NCBI GenBank assembly: GCA_913774845.1
Contig: CAJYJO010000030.1
Location: 1-64,000 of the forward strand
Reading direction: 5' to 3'
DNA from: an uncultured Microbacterium sp.
Lineage (GTDB): Bacteria > Actinomycetota > Actinomycetes > Actinomycetales > Microbacteriaceae
Length of the DNA: 64,000 bases
Shown here: piece by piece, positions 2,217-15,053 of the stretch
How positions within the stretch are numbered: position 1 is the stretch's first letter
Layout of the letters: every line of letters begins with the position of its first letter
Notes under the pieces: generated by a model
What the model was told of the DNA's origin: nothing
Database searches by the model: none
The model's input: the letters and a program-made list of their open reading frames with translations, nothing else
Position numbers and translations under genes: made by a program

Positions 2217-3503
2217 TCAGCGGACGTTGCCGTTCGAGCAGGTCGACTGCGCGGCGGTCTGACCCGCGATGCCCGACGGCAGGGTGATGGCGTCGGAGGT
2301 CGGGGCGGGCGACGCGGTCGCGCTCTCGGTGGGCTCGGGGCTCGCGGTGTCGACCGGGGCGGGCGTTTCGGTGGGCGCTGGCGTCGCGTTCTCGTCGACG
2401 ACCACGCCGTCTCCGTCGCTGAGGTTGCCCGAGAGCTCGAGCGGCTGGTTGGCGGCGAGAGCGGCCCACAGCGTCTCGGCGTCCTCGCGGTCGGGGACCA
2501 CGCGGTTCGCGTTGGAGGGGTCGGTGTACGTCGGGTACTGGATGAAGACGATCTCGCTGAACGGCACGTCTTTCACCGCGGAGGCGATCTGCACGAGCGT
2601 CAGCGGGTTGGTGAGCGAGGTCGACGGGTCGACGTTGCGCAGGGCGGTCGAGGCGAGCTTGTACAGCGTCGCCGGGTTCGACAGCACGTCCTCGCTCTTG
2701 AGCTTGTTGGCCAGTCGCGACATGTACTGCTGCTGGTTCGAGATGCGGCCGAGGTCGCCGCCGTCACCGACGCCGTGGCGCGTGCGCAGGAACTGCAGGG
2801 CGTCGAGCCCCTTCACCGTGCGCATCCCCGCGGGCCAGTCGATACCGGTGTAACGATCCTTGATGCCGTTGGCGATGCAGACGTCGACGCCGCCGATCGC
2901 GTCGGTGATGTTGATGACGCCGCCGAAGCTCACCTTCGCGGCGAAGGGGATGTCGAGCCCGCTGAGCTCCGAGACGGTCTGCACGACGCACGACAGCCCG
3001 CCGTACAGGTACGCGCTGTTGATCTGGCGGTAGTCGCTCGCGTAGCTCTCGTTCCCGTCCTTGTCGGTGCACGACGGCATGGGCGCCATCAGGTCGCGCG
3101 GGAAGGAGATGACCGTCACCCGGCGCGGGGCGTCCGAGATGTGCACGAGCATGTTCACGTCGTTGAGGTTGCCCTCGGCATCGGAGCCCGAGCAGCGGTC
3201 GCCGAAGTACTGCGCGAAGTCCGGTTCACACTCGTCGGTGCCGACCAGCAGCATGTTGACGCCGCCCTTGAGCTCACCCAGGTCGGGCGGCACGGCGGGC
3301 TGGCCCTTCAGATCGACGGCGTCGGCGGTGAAGCTCTGCGTGAGGTCGACCGCGGCGTACGCGAGCACCGCGCCGCCGGAGACGAGCAGGACGGCGAGCG
3401 CGATCGCGACGCCGCGGAACAGCTGCGCGAAGGGCCCCGGCGACGTGAGCCGCCCATGGCGCGCGACGGTCCGCTGACCGCGCGGTGTTCTGGTCTTGCT
3501 CAC
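2217..3503 (-). CDS. LytR-CpsA-Psr (LCP) family cell-wall glycopolymer ligase
   Basis: 428 aa. Short cytoplasmic basic N-terminus, one membrane helix (about residues 25-50), then the extracellular LCP domain. Family motifs seen are LLVGTDE, SDAEGNLNDVNMLVHI, and VISFPRDLMAPMP with the Arg that binds the lipid pyrophosphate, followed by the LQFLRTRHG region with conserved arginines. The C-terminus (about 365-420) is a Pro/Thr/Ala-rich wall-spanning tail. LCP proteins move polymers from undecaprenyl carriers onto peptidoglycan. GTG at 3503 was chosen because GAGAGGACCC precedes it; an in-frame ATG lies at 3530. Confidence 0.9.
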   Translation of the reverse strand: MSKTRTPRGQRTVARHGRLTSPGPFAQLFRGVAIALAVLLVSGGAVLAYAAVDLTQSFTADAVDLKGQPAVPPDLGELKGGVNMLLVGTDECEPDFAQYFGDRCSGSDAEGNLNDVNMLVHISDAPRRVTVISFPRDLMAPMPSCTDKDGNESYASDYRQINSAYLYGGLSCVVQTVSELSGLDIPFAAKVSFGGVINITDAIGGVDVCIANGIKDRYTGIDWPAGMRTVKGLDALQFLRTRHGVGDGGDLGRISNQQQYMSRLANKLKSEDVLSNPATLYKLASTALRNVDPSTSLTNPLTLVQIASAVKDVPFSEIVFIQYPTYTDPSNANRVVPDREDAETLWAALAANQPLELSGNLSDGDGVVVDENATPAPTETPAPVDTASPEPTESATASPAPTSDAITLPSGIAGQTAAQSTCSNGNVR

Positions 3504-3699
3504 TCGGGTCCTCTCGGAGACGGATGCCACCGGCCCGGCAGCACGTCGACCCCGGCGCGGCCGGAGGTCGCAGCAATACTAGGGACGTGCGGCTGTGAAT
3601 GGCGTGAAGAGCGGCGCGGCGCGGCATCCGGTGTTCGTCGAATGGATGCCGTGACGTCACGTCCGCGCGTTAGCGTGCGACCACGGACAGGGGGACGGC

Positions 3700-3810
3700 A
3701 TGGACGAGACGCTCGAAACGGTTCTGATCCTCGTCGCGATCGGCGGGCTCGTCGCCGCCACGGTGACGATGGGGATCGTCGCCGCGCTTAGTAATCGCGA
3801 CGGTGCGTGA
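3700..3810 (+). CDS. Small single-helix membrane protein, function unknown
   Basis: 36 aa, starting MDETLETVLILVAIGG, then a continuous hydrophobic helix (about residues 8-30) and a short polar tail NRDGA. The ATG follows GGGGGAC, a reasonable ribosome binding site. It lies between the divergent LCP gene and the accessory island. The clean membrane helix with charged ends supports it being coding, but there is no family recognition. Confidence 0.45.
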   Translation: MDETLETVLILVAIGGLVAATVTMGIVAALSNRDGA

Positions 3811-3920
3811 GCAGGTGGGTGGCCGTTAGCCAGCGCCCCGCGGCTACCCCTGCGCGGAACAGCTCTGTCCCGAGAGCGCGTCTCGATTTAGAATAAAATA
3901 AATACGATTTGGAGGTGGCG

Positions 3921-5102
3921 ATGGCGGAGAGTGCTCCCAGCCCGTTCACCCCGGGCTATGGCAAGAAGCCTGCCATCTTCGGTGGCCACGGGGAAGAGCT
4001 CGCCGAACTCCGCCGAGTCTTCGACACTCTCGACTTCGGTGAGAACCACTCCGTACTGGTGTCGGGTCTGCGCGGTGTCGGCAAGACCTCGTTCCTCGCC
4101 ACCCTGCAGGACGACGCACGCGATGCCGGGTGGATCGTCATCAGCGATGACGCCAGCGCAGGTCTCATGGGCCGCGTCATGGACTCGGCCATCCCAGCCC
4201 TCATCAACGAGCGGACGCCGGAGTACCGAGTGCGGCTGAGCAAGCTGGGGATCTGGCAGTTCAATGCCGAGGTCAGCTACATCGACCGCCACCGCTCGGT
4301 GAAGCCGCAACTGCGCAGCGACCTCGTCGCGCTTTCCGCTGCGCTCGAGGGGTCCGCGGGCATCCTCATCACCATCGACGAGGTCTCGGCCGGCAAGGTC
4401 CGACTCCGCGAACTGAGCAAATTCGCGCTGCAGGTATCTCACGCCCTGGAAGACGGCGCCCAGGTCATGGTCGTATTCGCCGGCGTGAAGGTAAGCCTCG
4501 ACGCCCTGCTCGCAGAGGCGCACACGACCTTCCTTCGTCGTTCGAGGGAAGTCGAGTTCGAGCGGCTGTCCGCGCCCGAGACCCGAAGAGTGTTCGTCGA
4601 GACCGCCCGCGTCGGTGGCCGTGCCGTCGAACAAGAGGCGCTGGACAAGCTCGTCTCTCTGTCCCAGGGTTACCCCTACCTTGTCCAGCTCGCAGGCGAT
4701 TACGCGTGGCGGAACAACTCGACCGCGCCCACCATCACGCTCGCCGACGCGACCATCGCTCACGACCGAGCCATCAGAGCCGTCGAGAGCCGGGTCATCA
4801 GCCGTGTCTACGGCGACCTCTCCGAGGTGGACCAGAAGTTTCTCGACGCCATGGCCGAGGACGACGACCGTACGAAGGTGGCGGACATCGTGAAGCGGAT
4901 GGGCGTGTCCGACGCTTACGTCCAGGTCTATAAGAAGCGGCTGCTGGAGAGCGGGTACGTGCACACCGCCGGGCGTGGTTACGTGCAGTTCTCCTTGCCG
5001 TACCTGGGCGCCTACATACGACGACAGCTCGCCGCCGAGGCGAGCGAAAGCCGCAATGACGGCGGTTGGTCTGCGTACCCCGCCCCGGATCTGCCCTCCT
5101 AG
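3921..5102 (+). CDS. AAA+/STAND-like ATPase with C-terminal winged helix
   Basis: 393 aa. Walker A GLRGVGKTS at residues 49-57, Walker B ILITIDEVS at 149-157, and a C-terminal helical and winged-helix region (about 295-375). The layout matches Orc1/Cdc6-like and archaeal-type ATPases. No nuclease or membrane part is present. ATG 3921 was chosen over an upstream TTG because GGAGGT sits just before it. Upstream (3888-3910) is an unusually AT-rich stretch, TAGAATAAAATAAATACG, that can act as a -10 region. It sits at the left end of the accessory island. It could be a defence ATPase, a plasmid or element remnant, or a stand-alone ATPase; I cannot decide. Confidence 0.7.
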   Translation: MAESAPSPFTPGYGKKPAIFGGHGEELAELRRVFDTLDFGENHSVLVSGLRGVGKTSFLATLQDDARDAGWIVISDDASAGLMGRVMDSAIPALINERTPEYRVRLSKLGIWQFNAEVSYIDRHRSVKPQLRSDLVALSAALEGSAGILITIDEVSAGKVRLRELSKFALQVSHALEDGAQVMVVFAGVKVSLDALLAEAHTTFLRRSREVEFERLSAPETRRVFVETARVGGRAVEQEALDKLVSLSQGYPYLVQLAGDYAWRNNSTAPTITLADATIAHDRAIRAVESRVISRVYGDLSEVDQKFLDAMAEDDDRTKVADIVKRMGVSDAYVQVYKKRLLESGYVHTAGRGYVQFSLPYLGAYIRRQLAAEASESRNDGGWSAYPAPDLPS

Positions 5103-6689: not shown

Positions 6690-9600
6690 TTGAATGTCTG
6701 GAGTCGTGCAGGCGCGATCGCCGGCCGCGGATTTCATTTCCAGGATGCTGTGGGGGCATGGTTTTGTGCTCGGCTACTGGGCGGATCCGATGGAGCCCAC
6801 CGCGTAGTGCCCGAAGGCTACGAAGATCTTCAAATCGACGGTGATGTGCCTCTTTTTGTTCAGGTGAAGAGCCGACAAGAGCGACGGGGATCGTTCACGT
6901 TGTCAGAGACCGGGGACCATCTGGTCGAGATGTGGGAGAAGCACCGGGCACGAGGGTTCGTGACTGGTCGGCTGATCCTGGTGGTAGAACGACCGGTGGC
7001 GGGCGAAGTCTTCGATGATCTCAACCGCACTCTCAGCGACCTCGACGCCTCGCATCCGCTGAGATCCGTCATCGCAGAGAAGGTTGGCCCCGATCTCGCC
7101 GAACTCTTGACGATCTCGACCATCCTCACTCTCGACTGGCAGCTCGCCCACGATCAGGCGGTTACCGCCCTTGCAGACTCCTTGAATGCTGCCCGCGCTG
7201 CCTGCGAGTTCGTCGAGCGGTCGTTGCGAATCGATGTCGCAAACGCCGCCGACGCCAATGCGGCCGTTACCGTCCCTGAACTTGCTGTCGGCATCGACCG
7301 ATCGGAGGTCAGACACCGGGCAGAGAGTGCACTGCGGTTGCTAGATGCAGATGCGCTATCACGAGCGATCACAGACGGGACCTGCGTGCCTGTCAGATTT
7401 GTCGACCTTGGAGCCCACGACGACTATTACGCAGGTACGTCGGCGCGGCCCGAGCATATTGCCGCAGGGCTGCCCGCCCCAATGCCCGACGCTGTCGGCG
7501 ATGCAGTCACGGCCCTGAGCGCGGGCAAGCCAGTCCTGTTCGTCGGACCGTCCGGAGTCGGCAAGTCAACGGCGGTATGGTCCGCTGTCTATACGCGACG
7601 TGATGTCGTTTGGTACGAGGTGAGGCGTACAGATACCGAAGCAATCCGGAGCATTGTCGACCTGGCAGTTTCCTTCGCCACCAACGACCGGAATCAGATC
7701 GGATTCGTCCTCGACGGGGTGGGAACAGGCCAGTTGCTCGGGTGGGACGAACTCGTAGACGCAACTTCGCACTTGACCGGGGTCATGACGCTTGGCTCAG
7801 TCAGAAATGAAGACTTGATCGGCGTCCGCGACACGGCGCGATGTGCGCTCGTTCGCGTGTCTCTTACTGAGCAGATAGCGGAGGCGCTTTATGTCAGTCT
7901 CCAGAACGACCGGCTCACCAGTCTCCCACACTGGCGGGAAGCGTATGACGCGGCGGATGGGCTGACTCTCGAATACACGTACATGCTCACACGAGGACGT
8001 CGTCTTGGAGCCGTCCTTCGCGACCAAGTGATGAACCACATCTGCCAAGGTCGAGAAACCGAACTGCGGGTTCTTGCCCTCGTTTCCACGGCCTCGCAAT
8101 GGGGAGCCGCCCTGAGTATCCCCCAACTTGAATCCGCGCTGCCAACAGAAGGCGCACTGCGCCGTGCGTTGCTTCGCCTGGCGGAGGAACACCTCGTTCT
8201 GGTGTCCGGCGAAACCGTGCGTGGATTGCACCCACTTCGCTCGCGTCTACTGTCCAAATACTTACATGAGGCGCCCCCACCTTCGGTGGCCCAAACAATT
8301 CAGAAGCTCGTCAGTCTGGTTGCGGCGGAATTCCTGCCGACTCTTCTTGTAGGCATTGCACGCGATGCGCCTGCGGCTCTTCCGTCGGCAATAAACAGGC
8401 TTCAGAACCGGTTGGCGCAGGCACCAGTTGGCGAGTTGATCACGGGTTTGCAAGCAGTCAAGCTCGCGGATCTGCAGGGCCGGTCCGAGCATTGGCTTGA
8501 AGTGCTCAACCGAAATGACGTGCCTCCACCATCTCGTGTTTTCACGCTGCAACTGGCGATCGTGGACGGCGACTGGAGCGGCATGCCCTTTCCACAGAAC
8601 GTCGCCAAGGCCGTCAGTGAGCTGCGTGAGGTCGCCAAGGAGCCGTTCCCGGGCCTCGCAACAGTCATGAGAAATATCGGGGTCAGTCGTATAATGGACG
8701 CCGTCTTTTCGCTACACCGACTATCGGACCTCGAAAGCCTCTTCAGCGCGATCCACGGAGCAGATCCGGAACTCCTCCAGGACATCGACGTCAATTTCGG
8801 CACGCATCTGGACAACGGACGCCGACCGGCTAGTTTCTCTCAGGAACCGCCGCTGGAGGCGTTAGCTGAGTTGACAATGGCGGCGCGGATGCTTACTCCA
8901 GGTGTCGCTGAAGGAGTCACAAGATTGGCCGGCGGCGCAGACCGGATCCTCGATCGACTGACCGAGCGGTTCATGGGCGCGCATTCGCTATTCATTGTCG
9001 ATTCCCACGATGGCAAAATACTGCATGGTTCCATCATCCATGTTTCGGACGCGGTTCAGGGTGACGCTGATCGAAATGCGAAGGAACTTGCTCGTCTCGG
9101 CGTCGCATGCATACCGAGTGTAGATAGCGCAGACATATCAACGAAGCTCCCAGGCGGAAATGACTATCGCATCGGCGATATGCAGCTGGGAATATCTAAG
9201 CTCCAACGAAGATCGCTCCACGCGAGGTCCTCCGTCGCTTCGAACAGGCAAACCGCTAATCTCGCGGCCGCGCGGCTGCATCAGTTGACACGGACTGAGC
9301 GCGTTTCCGTCGGGGAAGCGGGGCTAAGACTCGCGGATGCTGTTCTGGACCGCACGGCATTGATCTGGCTACGTGGTGAAACTCGCTCCAGCGTGGTTGC
9401 CGCATTACAGGAAGACGCGGCGTCGCTCGCGGAGATGGCTAATCGATTGGTTCCGGTTGTCGATTCGCCGCTAGATGGGACGTCGGCACCCCCATCCGAT
9501 GACTTGCATAGTGTCTTGAGCGGGATTGCGCTCGATCTTCCCAGAAGACTGGTCGATCCCACAGGTCACCGAGCGTTGGCGATGTATCTGAGTGAAAACT

Positions 9601-10571
9601 TGGTGGAGGCTGCGATCAAATGCAAACGAGAACCGTGGGACCTGATTGCTGAAGACCCGTCCGATGCAATTGACCGGATTGTCGGACGTCTCGAGGACCT
9701 TTCCGCCATCCTGGAAACGATTGCGGCGAACGAGACGAGCGGCAGTGATATACGCCGAGCGGCCCGTTCGGGTGAGTCCGGTCTAGCTCTCGCTCGCGCT
9801 GGCACCCTTGCCCGACGAAATGGATCTCGAACCGCTCAGCGCCAGCGCGACCTGCAACTGTCTGCCTTGCGCGAACTAGGGCTTGAGGCGACCTCATACG
9901 AGCGGGCCACAGATCGTGTTTACGAAGGCTGGCCTCCGCAGCAGCGCGCCGTCGGAATCAAGGTTCCTGATCCGCTCGAATGGTTCAAGCACTCGCCGGA
10001 GGTGCTGCACAAGCTGACCCCAGACTCGGGTTCGTATGGGTACCGACCCCCCTTAATCGTTTTCCCGGAGATTGGGGGATACCGAGTGGACCGCCTTGCA
10101 TTCACAATCATCCGTACCGCACATTCGAGCGAGACTGCTCTCGACGATTGGACAGGACTGGTGCCGCCGGCCTGGACGACCCCTCGATCCGATGCATACA
10201 AAGCAGGAATCCACGCGGCTACCGTGCTTTCTGGGCTCGAAGTGATGCGGCGTTACCACATCGCCCACGACGTTGCGGAGCTGCGCGCCCGCTTCCAACT
10301 CGAACTCGACCAGGCGGTTCTCAAATTACAGGCGTTCGACAACGTCGCGACGGACGTCGTCGCCAAGCACCTTGATACTATTCGCTCGCGTCTAGTTGAG
10401 GAGCTAGAAGATTTAACTCAGGTCGCTGAGGACGAGACGATCGCCGCACATCTGCTCGGATCGGTGCTAGGGGTGGAATCCGAACTCGGAACATCGGTAA
10501 CCGCCCACGGCGTGCTAGCACTGCAATGCGACGTGGATATCGAGGTGGCAACTTCTTTCACAGAGCGATAG
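6690..10571 (+). CDS. Cap4-type nuclease fused to P-loop (STAND-like) NTPase, putative anti-phage effector
   Basis: 1293 aa. The N-terminus (about 1-160) matches the Cap4/DUF4297 dsDNA endonuclease pattern: RGFHFQDAVG (13-22), PEGYEDLQIDG (41-51), FVQVKS (56-61), giving the E/D...QxK catalytic set of a PD-(D/E)xK fold. A Walker A motif GPSGVGKST lies at about 286-294, followed by a Walker-B-like GFVLDGVG about 50 residues later, then winged-helix-like and long helical C-terminal regions (about 450-1293) with no family I recognise. Nuclease + NTPase + large C-terminal sensor is the Avs/STAND defence layout. TTG 6690 was chosen because CGAGG lies about 6 bp upstream and translation from there keeps the whole nuclease motif; no ATG fits. 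Codon use is clearly less GC-biased than the neighbours, suggesting transfer. Confidence 0.8.
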   Translation: MNVWSRAGAIAGRGFHFQDAVGAWFCARLLGGSDGAHRVVPEGYEDLQIDGDVPLFVQVKSRQERRGSFTLSETGDHLVEMWEKHRARGFVTGRLILVVERPVAGEVFDDLNRTLSDLDASHPLRSVIAEKVGPDLAELLTISTILTLDWQLAHDQAVTALADSLNAARAACEFVERSLRIDVANAADANAAVTVPELAVGIDRSEVRHRAESALRLLDADALSRAITDGTCVPVRFVDLGAHDDYYAGTSARPEHIAAGLPAPMPDAVGDAVTALSAGKPVLFVGPSGVGKSTAVWSAVYTRRDVVWYEVRRTDTEAIRSIVDLAVSFATNDRNQIGFVLDGVGTGQLLGWDELVDATSHLTGVMTLGSVRNEDLIGVRDTARCALVRVSLTEQIAEALYVSLQNDRLTSLPHWREAYDAADGLTLEYTYMLTRGRRLGAVLRDQVMNHICQGRETELRVLALVSTASQWGAALSIPQLESALPTEGALRRALLRLAEEHLVLVSGETVRGLHPLRSRLLSKYLHEAPPPSVAQTIQKLVSLVAAEFLPTLLVGIARDAPAALPSAINRLQNRLAQAPVGELITGLQAVKLADLQGRSEHWLEVLNRNDVPPPSRVFTLQLAIVDGDWSGMPFPQNVAKAVSELREVAKEPFPGLATVMRNIGVSRIMDAVFSLHRLSDLESLFSAIHGADPELLQDIDVNFGTHLDNGRRPASFSQEPPLEALAELTMAARMLTPGVAEGVTRLAGGADRILDRLTERFMGAHSLFIVDSHDGKILHGSIIHVSDAVQGDADRNAKELARLGVACIPSVDSADISTKLPGGNDYRIGDMQLGISKLQRRSLHARSSVASNRQTANLAAARLHQLTRTERVSVGEAGLRLADAVLDRTALIWLRGETRSSVVAALQEDAASLAEMANRLVPVVDSPLDGTSAPPSDDLHSVLSGIALDLPRRLVDPTGHRALAMYLSENLVEAAIKCKREPWDLIAEDPSDAIDRIVGRLEDLSAILETIAANETSGSDIRRAARSGESGLALARAGTLARRNGSRTAQRQRDLQLSALRELGLEATSYERATDRVYEGWPPQQRAVGIKVPDPLEWFKHSPEVLHKLTPDSGSYGYRPPLIVFPEIGGYRVDRLAFTIIRTAHSSETALDDWTGLVPPAWTTPRSDAYKAGIHAATVLSGLEVMRRYHIAHDVAELRARFQLELDQAVLKLQAFDNVATDVVAKHLDTIRSRLVEELEDLTQVAEDETIAAHLLGSVLGVESELGTSVTAHGVLALQCDVDIEVATSFTER

Positions 10572-10764
10572 GCCGCCATCTATAGCAATTGGGCGTGAGG
10601 AACGGACGGAGCACTTGTGCCCGTCCGAGAGTGGGGGAACCGTCCAGAGCGCCGTTGGAGCCCTTCTACGGTGCTGCTGCGCATGCAGCCCGTGGACAGC
10701 GGCGAATATGCGCAAACCCCGCCCAAACTTTCGTTTGGACGGGGTTCGAATAACGCACGTTTGG
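10572..10764. other. Intergenic region between effector and tRNA-Ser
   Basis: No gene seen. It contains the minus-strand tRNA terminator at 10715-10746. I found no integrase, and no clear copy of the tRNA-Ser 3' end at the other side of the island. Confidence 0.5.
10715..10746 (-). terminator. Intrinsic terminator downstream of tRNA-Ser(TGA)
   Basis: 14-bp stem with one mismatch: AACCCCGTCCAAAC on the minus strand pairs with GTTTGGGCGGGGTT around a 4-base loop, starting 18 bp past the tRNA 3' end and ending in TTT. Confidence 0.85.
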
Positions 10765-10849
10765 CGGAGGGTGTGGGATTCGAACCCACGGGACATTGCT
10801 GCCCACTGGTTTTCAAGACCAGGTCCATCGGCCGCTCGGACAACCCTCC
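10765..10849 (-). tRNA. tRNA-Ser(TGA)
   Basis: On the minus strand it begins GGAGGGTTGTCCGAGCGGCC and ends ACCCTCC plus discriminator G, a 7-bp acceptor stem. The anticodon stem-loop ACTGGTTTTCAAGACCAGG, read in reverse complement, gives anticodon TGA. The T-loop is GGGTTCGAATCCC, and a long variable arm is present. It flanks the right end of the accessory island. Confidence 0.95.
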
Positions 10850-10947: not shown

Positions 10948-12765
10948 TCAGCCGAGCGGACCGTAGGCCGCCGGGGTCGTGCGGGCGTGGGTCGCCTGCT
11001 CGAAGCCGTAGGCGAGGCCCAGCAGCGGACCCTCGGCGAAGTCACGGCCGAGGAACTCCAGGTTCACTCCCCCGGTCGAGGCCTCGGTCGCGAGCCCCTG
11101 CCCCATCGGCACCGTGACCGCCGGCAGACCCGTGTTGGGGCTGAGACGCATGTTCGCGGTGCTGATCGTGGCGTAGGTGTTCGCGCTCGGGTAGATGACG
11201 GCATCCAGCTTCTGAGCGTCCATGAACGCGGTCATGATCTGCTTGCCCTTGGCCAGCTGCAGGGTGTGCGACCCCTGCGGGCCGGCCCAGGCCTGGTACG
11301 CCGCCTCGGTCACTGCCGCGCGCTGACCGTAAGGGTTGCTCGCGCGACCGGGGACGATGTTCGGCGACTGCGAGATCGCGAGCAGACTGCGCGCGCTCAC
11401 CGCCGGGTTCAGGGAGGCGGTGATGTAGTTCTGCAGGTCGTGGTTGAACTCGGGGCCGCTCCCGCTGCCCTCGCCGACGATGGCCGCGAAGCCGTCGGGC
11501 GGGGTCAGCTCGACGACCGTCGCCCCGCGCTGCTCGAGGGTCTTCTTCGCCTGCTCGAACAGGCGCAGCGTCGTGGGGTTGCTGCCGACGAGCGACGGGA
11601 AGTATCCGAGCTTCTTTCCGGTCAGCGCGCCGTCGTCGAGGTACGAGGTGTACGTCTCGGGCACCTTCCCGGCCTGGCGAGCGGTCACCGGGTCACCGGC
11701 GTCCTCCCCGACCACCGCGTCGAGCGCGATCGCGGCATCCTGAACCGAGCGGGCGATCGGACCGCCGGTGTCCTGCGAGAGGGCGAGCGGCACGATGCCG
11801 TCGCGGCTCGCGAGGCCCACCGTGGGACGCACGCCGACGAGCTGGTTGTAGGTCGAGGGGATGCGGATCGAGCCGCCGGTGTCGGTGCCGAAACCGATGC
11901 CGGCGAGGTTCGCGGCGATCGCAGCGCCCGTTCCCCCGCTCGACCCGCCCGAGGTCTTCGTGGTGTCGTAGGGGCTCGAGACGATACGGGACGCACCCGC
12001 GGGCTGGAACGCCGACCATTCGGAGCTCAGGTTGATGGCGAACTCGTCCATCGAGGCCTTGGCGACGATCACCGCGCCGTCGGCGCGGAGCCCCTTCACC
12101 ATGGTCGCGTCGGTCGAGGTCTGGTTGTCGTTCCAGCAGCCGCATCCGGCCGTGGTGGGCATGTCGACGGTGTTGTAGTTGTCCTTCAGAGCCACCGGGA
12201 TGCCGAGCAGCATCCCCGTCATCCCCTTCTCGGCGCGGATCGCGTCGGCCTCCGCCGCGGCCTTCAACGCGACCTCGCTCGTCGTGATGATCGAGTTGAG
12301 CGGGCGGACACCGGTCGGACGCACGGTCTTGTCGTACGCCGCGATGCGATCGAGGTACTGCTGCGTGAGCGACACCGAGGTGATCACCCCGGCATTCATC
12401 GCCGCCTGCATGGCCACCGCGTCGGCCTCGACAATCTCGAACGGTCCGTCGTCGTAGATGATGCGCTCCGACAGCAGGGCGAGGTCGGATGCCGTCACGG
12501 CATCGTCGTCGTCGAGGTCGAACCGCGCGGCATCCGCCCATCCGGCCCCACCCGAGGTCGCACCCAGGTGCGGGGCGAGGGCCTCGAGGTCGGCCGTGGT
12601 CACCCGCGCATCGCCGGTGACGTCGAGCTCGGTGTAGTACGGCGCGAGGAAGGGCGCGCCGACGACGGGGGCGGCGAGCGCCGCAGAGGGCGCGACGACC
12701 GCCCCGGCGACGACGACGCCGACGGAGGCGGACACGGCCAGGACACGGCGGGCCAAGGGGGTCAT
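10948..12765 (-). CDS. Secreted amidase-signature hydrolase with N-terminal dockerin domain
   Basis: 605 aa. Signal peptide at residues 1-32 (basic MTPLARR, long hydrophobic core, ALAAP cleavage). Residues about 48-102 are a type-I dockerin-like pair of calcium loops: DVTGDARVTTADL (48-60) and DLDDDDAVTASDL (83-95), spaced by a linker. Then comes the amidase signature domain: Lys in VALKDN, Ser-rich SGGSSGGTGAA, and the nucleophile region GTDTGGSIRIP, i.e. the Ser-cisSer-Lys triad. The amide substrate is unknown. ATG 12765 has AAGGA 6 bp upstream; an alternative ATG at 12810 overlaps the upstream stop (ATGA) and would add 15 residues. It is directly downstream of the cohesin-like gene. Confidence 0.88.
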   Translation of the reverse strand: MTPLARRVLAVSASVGVVVAGAVVAPSAALAAPVVGAPFLAPYYTELDVTGDARVTTADLEALAPHLGATSGGAGWADAARFDLDDDDAVTASDLALLSERIIYDDGPFEIVEADAVAMQAAMNAGVITSVSLTQQYLDRIAAYDKTVRPTGVRPLNSIITTSEVALKAAAEADAIRAEKGMTGMLLGIPVALKDNYNTVDMPTTAGCGCWNDNQTSTDATMVKGLRADGAVIVAKASMDEFAINLSSEWSAFQPAGASRIVSSPYDTTKTSGGSSGGTGAAIAANLAGIGFGTDTGGSIRIPSTYNQLVGVRPTVGLASRDGIVPLALSQDTGGPIARSVQDAAIALDAVVGEDAGDPVTARQAGKVPETYTSYLDDGALTGKKLGYFPSLVGSNPTTLRLFEQAKKTLEQRGATVVELTPPDGFAAIVGEGSGSGPEFNHDLQNYITASLNPAVSARSLLAISQSPNIVPGRASNPYGQRAAVTEAAYQAWAGPQGSHTLQLAKGKQIMTAFMDAQKLDAVIYPSANTYATISTANMRLSPNTGLPAVTVPMGQGLATEASTGGVNLEFLGRDFAEGPLLGLAYGFEQATHARTTPAAYGPLG

Positions 12766-12806
12766 GACGGATCCTTCGCGGAAGAGAACGGACGAACGGG
12801 ACGCGG

Positions 12807-13556
12807 TCATTCCTGCACCGCCTGACGGCGGCGGAGCACGACCAGGACGGCACCGGCGACGAGCGCGGCGACGCCGAGGGCACCGGAGATCAGCCACGCG
12901 GCGGCGTCGACACCGGTGGTGGCGAGATCGCCCGGAGCATTGGCGGCGGGGAGCGGCGTGGCCGACGCCGACGACGAGGTCGACGGAGACGGCGACGACG
13001 AGACCGTCGGCTGCGGCACCGGACCCGGCTGGGCCGCGATGGCGACGGTCTGGGATGCCACGCCCTCCGCCGTCACGACGTCGCCGATCGACGACACCAG
13101 ACGCACCGATGACAGCTCGACGACGGCCGAGCCGGCAGCGAGGGTCCGCAGCGGGATGACCGCCAGGACCACACCGCTCGTCCCGGCGAGACCGGGCGAG
13201 GTGCCCAGACGCGTGTGCGTCACGGTCAGCGTGCCGGACCCCGTGGCCGACGACGTGAAGCCGCCGTCCGGTCCGGTGGGGGCCTCGTCGGCGGGTGCCA
13301 CGAGCTCGGGGTCGAAAGCGAGCTCGAGGTCGTAGGAGTAGAGGTCGCTCACCCCCGAGGCCGTGACGGTGGCGACGAGGGAATCGCCCTCGGTGACGTC
13401 GGTCTCGTCGAGCGAGAGCGACAGCGTCGCGGCGGGCGGGGCGGCGTGGGCCGCGGGGGCGACGAGCAGCGGCCCGAGAAGGGCCAGAGCCGCCACGAGA
13501 GCGGCACCGAGCCGGCGGGCCGGTCTCGGACGGGGAGGTGTGCGGTGTGCAGACAT
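12807..13556 (-). CDS. LATTG-anchored surface protein with a single cohesin-like domain
   Basis: 249 aa. Signal peptide (about 1-38, ending AAHAAPP), a cohesin-like beta domain (about 43-172; features LSLDETDVTEGDSL, YSYDLELAFDPELV, and a late VVLAVIPLRTLAAGSAVVEL strand pair), a Ser/Pro/Thr linker (about 175-205), then LATTG (about 209-213), a membrane helix and RRRQ tail: a sortase sorting signal of the LAxTG type used by class E sortases. It is therefore likely covalently wall-bound with one cohesin displayed. GAGGAG precedes ATG 13556. The next gene encodes a dockerin-bearing amidase, the natural partner. The cohesin assignment is by pattern reading. Confidence 0.82.
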   Translation of the reverse strand: MSAHRTPPRPRPARRLGAALVAALALLGPLLVAPAAHAAPPAATLSLSLDETDVTEGDSLVATVTASGVSDLYSYDLELAFDPELVAPADEAPTGPDGGFTSSATGSGTLTVTHTRLGTSPGLAGTSGVVLAVIPLRTLAAGSAVVELSSVRLVSSIGDVVTAEGVASQTVAIAAQPGPVPQPTVSSSPSPSTSSSASATPLPAANAPGDLATTGVDAAAWLISGALGVAALVAGAVLVVLRRRQAVQE

Positions 13557-13787: not shown

Positions 13788-15053
13788 ATGGCACCGACCG
13801 CGCGCAGTCCCCTCGCCTCGCTCTTCCTCCGCCTGGGGAGACAGGTGTGGGTGCGCGCGGCGATCTTCACCCTCATCGCGATCGTGGTCGTCCTGGCCGC
13901 GCGCTTCATCGGGCCGTTGCTGCCGTTCTCGTTCAGCATCGATCTGGCCGAGGGCGCCGTCGACGAACTCCTGCAGATCATCGCCACGGCGATGCTGACG
14001 GTGAGCACGTTCTCGGTGACGGCGATGGTCACCGCGTTCTCGTCGGCGACGACGACCGCCACCCCGCGCTCGACGCAGCTGCTGATCGCCGACCCCACCT
14101 CGCAGAACGCCGTCTCGACGTTCGTGGGCGCCTTCACGTTCTCGCTGGTGGGGATCGTCGCGCTCTCCACCGGGTACTACCAACGGCAGGGCCGCACGAT
14201 CCTCTTCGTCGCGACCCTCGTGGTCATCGGCATCGTCGTGTTCACCCTGCTGCGGTGGATCTCGCACCTGTCGACCTTCGGCCGTATGGCCGACGTCATC
14301 GACCGCGTCGAGAGGGCGGCCGCGACCTCGCTCCGGCTGCACGCCGAATCACCCACCCTCGGCGCCCGACCCGCGATCGCCGTACCGGCCGAGGCCCGGG
14401 CCGTGCACGCGGAACGGGTGGGCTACGTCACGCACGTCGACGTGGCGGGGCTCGATCGCATCGCCGATCGCCTCGACCTCGACATCCACGTGCGCGCCAC
14501 CCCGGGACGCATCGCCGATGCCCGCCTCCCCCTCGCGCTCGTCACCGGCCCCCTCGATGACGACGACGTCGCCCGGGTGCGTCGCGCGTTCCGTATCGAG
14601 AACCACCGCACCTACGAGCAGGACCCCCGCTTCGGCGTCATCGCCCTCAGCGAGATCGGCAGCCGCGCCCTCTCCGCAGCGACCAACGACCCGGGGACCG
14701 CGATCGAGGTGATCGCCGCTCTCCAGCGGGTCTTCGATGCAGCGCTCGCCACGGAGGCGGAACACCGCGTCGCGCACGAGCGGGTCTTCCTGCCGCCGCC
14801 CCGCCTCGCCGACCTCGTCGACGACGCCTTCCGCCCCCTCGCGCGCGACGGCGCATCCGACGTCGAGGTGCAGGTGCGCCTGCAGAAGTGCCTCGCCTCG
14901 CTCGCGGCATCCTCACCCGCCCGAGGCGGGGTGTTCCGGGATGCCGCCCGCGCGGCCCGCGAACGGGCTCGGCGCGAGCTGACACGCCAGGACCGCCGCG
15001 TGCTCGATGCCGCCGCGCGCACCGCCTGGAGCGGCGTCCCGGCATCGCGCTGA
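13788..15053 (+). CDS. DUF2254 family integral membrane protein
   Basis: 421 aa. Four membrane helices in the first 165 residues (about 24-45, 62-85, 113-133, 140-160), with the DUF2254 hallmark TAMVTAFSSATTTATPRSTQ between helices 2 and 3. The remaining 250 residues are soluble, mixed alpha/beta, probably cytoplasmic. The biochemical role of the family is unknown. Divergent from the cohesin/amidase operon across about 230 bp that must hold both promoters. Confidence 0.88.
   Translation: MAPTARSPLASLFLRLGRQVWVRAAIFTLIAIVVVLAARFIGPLLPFSFSIDLAEGAVDELLQIIATAMLTVSTFSVTAMVTAFSSATTTATPRSTQLLIADPTSQNAVSTFVGAFTFSLVGIVALSTGYYQRQGRTILFVATLVVIGIVVFTLLRWISHLSTFGRMADVIDRVERAAATSLRLHAESPTLGARPAIAVPAEARAVHAERVGYVTHVDVAGLDRIADRLDLDIHVRATPGRIADARLPLALVTGPLDDDDVARVRRAFRIENHRTYEQDPRFGVIALSEIGSRALSAATNDPGTAIEVIAALQRVFDAALATEAEHRVAHERVFLPPPRLADLVDDAFRPLARDGASDVEVQVRLQKCLASLAASSPARGGVFRDAARAARERARRELTRQDRRVLDAAARTAWSGVPASR

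Follow-up and report, generated by a model that had tools for sequence, protein, structure and literature searches.

A putative one-receptor, one-enzyme cohesin-dockerin pair with an amidase as cargo in Microbacterium and its relatives

Clostridia assemble their cellulose-degrading cellulosomes by cohesin-dockerin docking. Non-cellulosomal cohesin-dockerin pairs are already known, from Clostridium perfringens and from Archaeoglobus. The NagJ-NagH system of C. perfringens, which is non-cellulosomal, joins glycoside hydrolases to each other. For Archaeoglobus fulgidus, excerpts of PMC9705933 report strong and specific binding of the ORF2376 cohesin to the ORF2375 dockerin, and describe the engineering of this pair in Escherichia coli, with the cohesin displayed on the cell surface and an enzyme docked to it. 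Among cellulosomes, anchoring scaffoldins combine a surface cohesin with an SLH domain or a sorting signal (excerpts of PMC5817068 and PMC11557425). In the excerpts of PMC11557425, 305,693 genomes are screened for a protein with at least two cohesins plus a dockerin glycosidase, so that a pair of the type described below would fall outside the screen. Non-cellulosomal modules are the subject of Peer et al. 2009, cited in excerpts of PMC9012536, and that survey may list single members of such pairs. Among the matches listed in a search of open-access literature, a scope that leaves subscription journals mostly outside, we found no description of a cohesin with a dockerin-amidase, nor of such a pair for Microbacteriaceae or Paenibacillus.

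Here, we analyze a 64,000-nucleotide stretch of DNA from an uncultured Microbacterium sp. (hereafter the window), in which a gene for a cohesin protein is followed on the same strand by one for a dockerin-bearing amidase. As non-cellulosomal pairs are known, we regard this pair as a variant of an existing theme rather than a new principle. The NagJ-NagH complex (2ozn) and the GH33 cohesin (2vo8) of C. perfringens are the best fold matches of the dockerin and the cohesin here, respectively, but the receptor in the window is without an enzyme domain and has a wall anchor. The A. fulgidus pair is alike in that cohesin and dockerin reside on consecutively numbered ORFs, and its non-cellulosomal cohesin 2xdh is among the fold matches of the window cohesin; it differs in being archaeal, and in A. 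fulgidus we know of no enzyme-carrying receptor anchored by sortase or SLH. The engineered E. coli attachment follows the same design by hand, as a synthetic system. With anchoring scaffoldins (type II cohesin plus SLH; sortase-linked in Ruminococcus) the window pair shares an anchored surface cohesin; unlike them, it comes with no multi-cohesin scaffoldin that we could find, with one dockerin match in the genome, and with an amidase rather than a glycosidase as cargo. The features of the locus are listed here by position.

10948..12765, minus strand: dockerin-amidase gene, 605 aa (signal peptide, N-terminal dockerin, amidase)
10972..12447, minus strand: amidase-signature catalytic domain (Pfam Amidase, PF01425, 260 bits)
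12460..12624, minus strand: dockerin, residues 48-102 (Pfam Dockerin_1, loop conservation, model, fold search)
12481-12519, minus strand: dockerin calcium-type loop 2, residues 83-95
12586-12624, minus strand: dockerin calcium-type loop 1, residues 48-60
12807..12810, minus strand: ATGA overlap (cohesin stop codon and possible upstream amidase start)
12807..13556, minus strand: cohesin gene, 249 aa
12912..12926, minus strand: LATTG sorting motif, residues 211-215 (NF058582, 27.3 bits)
13023..13436, minus strand: cohesin domain, approximately residues 41-178 (Pfam, AlphaFold2, Foldseek)

A preliminary description had read the cohesin gene as encoding a signal peptide, a single cohesin-like domain, a linker and LATTG. 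Coordinates, strand and features all stand, the full order being signal peptide, one cohesin, Pro/Ser/Thr linker, LATTG, membrane segment and basic tail. Pfam Cohesin (PF00963) matched the product by hmmscan over residues 46-142 with 26.8 bits (cut-off 24.1), and the predicted fold likewise matched solved cohesins first. Specifically, AlphaFold2 with a 25-row alignment predicts an all-beta domain of 11 strands (block means of pLDDT 81-98 over residues 41-180), whose top Foldseek match is the C. perfringens cohesin 2vo8 (E 1.6e-8, target TM 0.81). Of the best 50 PDB rows, two are YcnI (7me6 chains) and the remainder cohesin, scaffoldin or cellulosome-component entries, among which 2o4e carries the title of a GH84 interaction module only. 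A sequence search with P0001 returned 10 PDB sequences (best E 5e-4), seven of them titled type II cohesin. The sorting signal was recognized by the NCBIfam LAVTG model NF058582 at 27.3 bits (cut-off 27), and L211, T214 and G215 of the motif are invariant across the 25-row alignment of cohesin proteins. The protein thus has what is looked for in a sortase substrate, namely, an LPXTG-like motif, a membrane segment, a basic tail and a sortase in the genome, which carries three sortase genes.

The second gene starts 41 bases behind the cohesin gene, although translation of the amidase could begin at the ATG at 12810, overlapping the cohesin stop codon. Its product is a secreted amidase with two dockerin-like loops, as had been proposed, and Dockerin_1 (PF00404) matches residues 48-102 with 25.9 bits, above the cut-off of 22.9. 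Type I dockerin loops are expected to carry Asp or Asn at positions 1, 3, 5 and 12. In a 56-row dockerin alignment (the window plus 55 of the 61 dockerin loci introduced below, near-copies dropped), position 12 is Asp in all rows in both loops, and position 1 is Asp in 54 of 56 rows for loop 1 and in all 56 for loop 2; position 3 of loop 1 departs from expectation, with Thr in 43 of 56 rows. Dockerin_1 matched all 56 rows at E up to 0.01 and EF-hand_7 matched 30, and the dockerin profile in turn also matches calmodulin EF-hands, at the level of sequence only. The preliminary description had staked its reading in part on the formation of a dockerin loop fold. A model of the 77-residue segment, predicted from the 56-row alignment (mean pLDDT 84.9), has three helices with the loops at the expected places, and solved dockerins rank first in Foldseek: 2ozn, 5m0y, 4u3s and 2y3n lead (probability 0.99-1.00, E 0.09-0.18), the top six rows comprise the NagJ-NagH complex and dockerins of type II complexes (probability 0.98-1.00, E 0.09-0.29), and all top 15 rows are dockerin-containing entries (E 0.09 to 2.2). 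The ranking is right yet statistically weak, as is to be expected of a segment of 77 residues. The EF-hand protein polcalcin appears at ranks 16 and 19 (rmsd 10.6) and three calmodulin entries at ranks 27, 29 and 30 (rmsd 10.7-12.5).

In the catalytic domain, Lys194, Ser275 and Ser299, which we take to be the Ser-Ser-Lys catalytic triad, are invariant in all 25 rows of an amidase alignment. The closest solved structures are 1m21 and 5ac3 of peptide amidase (240 bits), presumably of Stenotrophomonas origin and with peptide amidase activity, and no dockerin was matched in these. The closest relatives overall are from Microbacterium testaceum and kin, at 88% identity of the amidase; going by these, the genome is probably that of a Microbacterium. 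As for the surroundings, a tRNA-Ser gene (anticodon tga; 10762-10849, minus strand) lies between the amidase gene and a gene on the plus strand (6690-10571) whose 1293-aa product matches nSTAND3 and Cap4 nuclease below threshold; this could be a tRNA-associated defence gene of the STAND type. The divergent neighbor of the cohesin gene encodes a DUF2254 membrane protein (13788-15053, plus strand).

Does the window genome hold further partners? In its 3.37 Mb, the amidase dockerin was the sole Dockerin_1 match at E up to 10, which answers the call for a genome-wide search made in the preliminary description. A search of the genome with the PF00963 profile missed the window cohesin, which direct hmmscan and a family profile both detect; PF00963 matches elsewhere are weak (E 0.9 or more), and the family profile finds one cohesin. 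A cellulosome was considered and rejected: instead of a scaffoldin with at least two cohesins and several dockerin glycosidases, the genome has one cohesin match and one dockerin match, the latter on the amidase.

The same exclusivity was seen in a set of 32 genomes (26 family genomes with the pair plus six congeners without it; G155 and G056 not included), for which all candidates were scored in searches with the cohesin-domain profile and Dockerin_1. At E up to 0.01, the cohesin profile matched once in each of the 26 pair genomes and in none of the six congeners, which also showed no Dockerin_1 match. In 21 of the 26, the single Dockerin_1 match is at the amidase. Three others (G328, G340 and G021) have no match at E 0.01, their amidases carrying the dockerin by similarity to that of the window. 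G321 and G360 have a second match elsewhere in the genome, located in a 1259-aa frame (G321:C13:154463-154606) and a 1241-aa frame (G360:C5:796500-796646), respectively. These second matches are what one would cite for a wall cohesin that receives dockerins of other proteins or of neighbors, the amidase being one of several clients; with one cohesin and one Dockerin_1 match in the window genome, and the amidase as the only match in 21 of 26 pair genomes, we give this reading almost no weight. With one cohesin per genome and a dockerin mostly at the amidase only, the arrangement is one-to-one, not a scaffold.

To what extent is the pair kept among relatives? In a named-genome set, our own domain profiles, applied to the 80 best amidase loci, identified a dockerin in 61 (L101-L161). 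A cohesin is adjacent or fused in 59 of these; the other two, L109 (Cellulosimicrobium) and L126 (Cellulomonas iranensis), have the dockerin-amidase at a contig end. At the 19 loci without a dockerin (L162-L180; Bacillaceae, Paenibacillus and Spirosoma), no cohesin was found within up to ∼4 kb on either side, some flanks being shorter. The pair occurs in Microbacterium, Curtobacterium, Leifsonia, Mycetocola, Agreia, Frigoribacterium, Herbiconiux, Cellulosimicrobium, Demequina, Georgenia, Oceanitalea, Oerskovia, Nocardioides, Naasia, Paenibacillus and Cohnella. In a cohesin-domain alignment of 59 rows (the window plus 58 of the 59 loci, L111 left out), Pfam Cohesin matches 53 at E up to 0.01. 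Excerpts of PMC4562250 report neither cohesin nor dockerin in the Cellulosimicrobium cellulans F16 genome, and those of PMC3544764 report the same for three Cellulomonas genomes; other Cellulosimicrobium strains or species carry the pair (L110, L117, L120 and L146). Six plasmid records contain amidases of 36.6-40.2% identity, with matches that start at residue 105 or later and hence do not cover the dockerin, and in one of the six, from Metabacillus, no cohesin is annotated within 3 kb.

Searches of the family gave a congruent picture. A full-length or nearly full-length cohesin match is present in 27 of 398 genomes, and 25 of the 26 cohesin-bearing relatives have a dockerin-amidase adjacent to or in one frame with the cohesin; in the 26th, G155, the locus is cut at a contig end and the amidase sits close to the end of a different contig. 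Close amidase orthologues (54% identity or more) occur in 28 genomes, namely, the same 27 plus G056, whose amidase begins at base 40 of its contig. The divergent amidases of G185 (43%) and G132 (42%) still carry a dockerin, with a divergent cohesin upstream, and the four loci fetched out of 28 further, lower amidase matches have neither. An order-wide search of 396 genomes gave 20 such cohesin matches (L181-L200; three from family-set genomes), with an amidase within reach at 19, while L197 is cut six bases past the match; at four of these loci the dockerin was beyond the first flank and was revealed by larger fetches. In a class-wide search, matches were present in 10 of 394 genomes, of which four were known from earlier sets. 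Of the six new loci, five have the amidase adjacent, with the dockerin end outside the flank, and one, in G1052, is an orphan. Before filtering, the cohesin query matched in 78 of 398 family and 259 of 396 order-wide genomes, yet the matches beyond the 27 and 20 fall elsewhere on the query, mainly at its C-terminal sorting-signal end, and were therefore not counted as cohesins. Absence in these searches is weak evidence, since few candidates were scored per genome (at most six for the family cohesin, three for the family amidase, seven order-wide and 10 class-wide). Nor are the counts additive, as the named-genome and family sets appear to overlap (e.g., L108/G160, L114/G115 and L161/G185).

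The genes that flank the pair differ between loci. None of 368 neighboring ORFs in the 61 loci, picked by length and many of them likely spurious in GC-rich DNA, is common to more than four other loci, leaving a wider operon unsupported. Gene order is reversed in some loci, with adjacency retained. A quickly built tree of 82 amidase rows (L179 left out; L111 uncounted for the anchor) shows at least two changes of gene order and at least three of the anchor; dockerin presence changes once, so that the loci are not independent trials. What recurs is the pair, kept as order, anchor and surroundings change. Chance domain matches are ruled out by the orthologues, the fold searches and the association of dockerin with cohesin. 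The distances of cohesins and dockerins correlate weakly and unevenly beyond those of the amidase (partial r 0.15, 0.36 and 0.07 in three sets, with 4, 0 and 160 of 2000 permutations, respectively, as high; 57 of the 59 two-domain loci were used, L111 being out for its frame break and L161 for lying outside the range taken).

One might argue that the two domains are related by descent to binding partners but do not bind each other, the dockerin being a structural calcium fold and the genes being neighbors through a shared pathway. The EF-hand-like sequence matches of the dockerin would fit this, as would the orphan cohesin of G1052 (L225, 8374-11298, minus strand), which is directly behind a gene for a secreted M28 peptidase with no amidase near. 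No dockerin match was found in the G1052 genome either, in a search without a positive control whose emptiness alone shows little. Still, cohesins are known dockerin receptors, natural fusions of the two exist, and dockerin-less amidases have no cohesin neighbor, be it at the 19 loci of the named-genome set or at the four fetched from the family; on balance, we think this explanation very unlikely.

The preliminary description had also proposed that the cohesin is anchored to the wall, and the LATTG here and the sorting or SLH signals of most relatives fit this, although an anchor goes unrecognized in six Nocardioides loci. Among the 59 partners, 39 have an LPXTG-like motif by pattern, 12 have SLH and eight have neither, the eight being six Nocardioides, L161 and L111. 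Pfam detects SLH in all 12 Paenibacillaceae partners, and Cohesin over the cut-off in 11 of these, L150 falling below. The L161 partner ends in a membrane segment and a basic tail, and in L111 (Demequina; 3117-3947, plus strand) the cohesin gene is apparently broken between two frames, with a sorting-like signal at the end of the second. Since all six Nocardioides loci of the named-genome set lack a recognizable anchor behind the cohesin, anchoring is not universal. Moreover, dockerin, amidase and cohesin occupy a single frame in four Nocardioides (L135, L136, L138 and L142) and in L226, which implies that docking is unneeded there to keep cohesin and enzyme together. The dockerins of L142 (17.2 bits) and L135 (20.7 bits), the two frames scanned whole, are below the Pfam cut-off of 22.9, and Pfam misses the L142 cohesin; these domains were called from our own profiles. 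L039 is a single frame in the opposite order, with a sorting signal and a second signal peptide remaining between the parts, and may have arisen through loss of a stop codon instead of by domain fusion. In Paenibacillaceae, the L160 amidase seems to bear an additional cohesin-like domain ahead of its dockerin (Pfam, 34.4 bits), and weak profile hits suggest the same for L148, L149, L150, L155 and L156; in these six amidases, the extra domain is reminiscent of the X-module that precedes type II dockerins.

Against a pure anchoring role, the Nocardioides partners without a recognized anchor and the single-chain forms weigh most. Together with the extra cohesin-like domain of some Paenibacillaceae amidases, they would suit a scheme in which cohesin and dockerin bind mainly to stabilize, gate or multimerize the amidase, the wall anchor being a lineage-specific addition; in a fused protein, the dockerin at the N-terminus would dock onto the cohesin at the C-terminus, either within one molecule or from one molecule to the next. 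A wall or membrane end is nonetheless present on 52 of the 59 partners (39 LPXTG-like, 12 SLH and the L161 tail, with the frame-split L111 uncounted), and we consider this scheme improbable, if less so than the alternatives above.

We therefore favor, with good though not full confidence, a dedicated surface display of the amidase by one receptor for one enzyme. Judging from the sequence, the cohesin protein and the amidase are both exported via their signal peptides, and a sortase would use LATTG to link the former to the wall. The amidase dockerin would fold around calcium in its two loops and plug into the single wall cohesin, as we infer from domain identity, adjacency, exclusivity and the natural fusions. 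Thus docked, the amidase would be kept at the surface, acting on amides near the cell and freeing products where the cell can take them up. Its resemblance to peptide amidase makes peptide amides or similar small amides the likeliest substrates. Of the minimal two-gene wall display originally proposed, the domains and the pairing hold; the picture of a single actinobacterium was too narrow, as the pairing extends across actinobacteria and Paenibacillaceae.

The pair would be cellulosomal docking chemistry at its most reduced, with a cargo other than a glycosidase, among Paenibacillaceae and actinobacteria of soil and plants. Taking all observations jointly, we see roughly even chances for a broader view, according to which cohesin-dockerin docking is a general enzyme-mounting plug of Gram-positive surfaces, cellulosomes being one elaborate use; a transferable one-receptor, one-amidase module would have been kept across Actinomycetota and Bacillota while sortase signal, S-layer domains and direct fusion replaced one another as its anchor, and head-to-tail docking of fused forms could build enzyme chains. 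Such pairs may offer new material for protein engineering, a use to which, according to excerpts of PMC9705933, the A. fulgidus pair has already been put. They would also provide a simple natural model for the beginnings of cohesin-dockerin systems, and offer a testable explanation for the surface retention of a secreted amidase.
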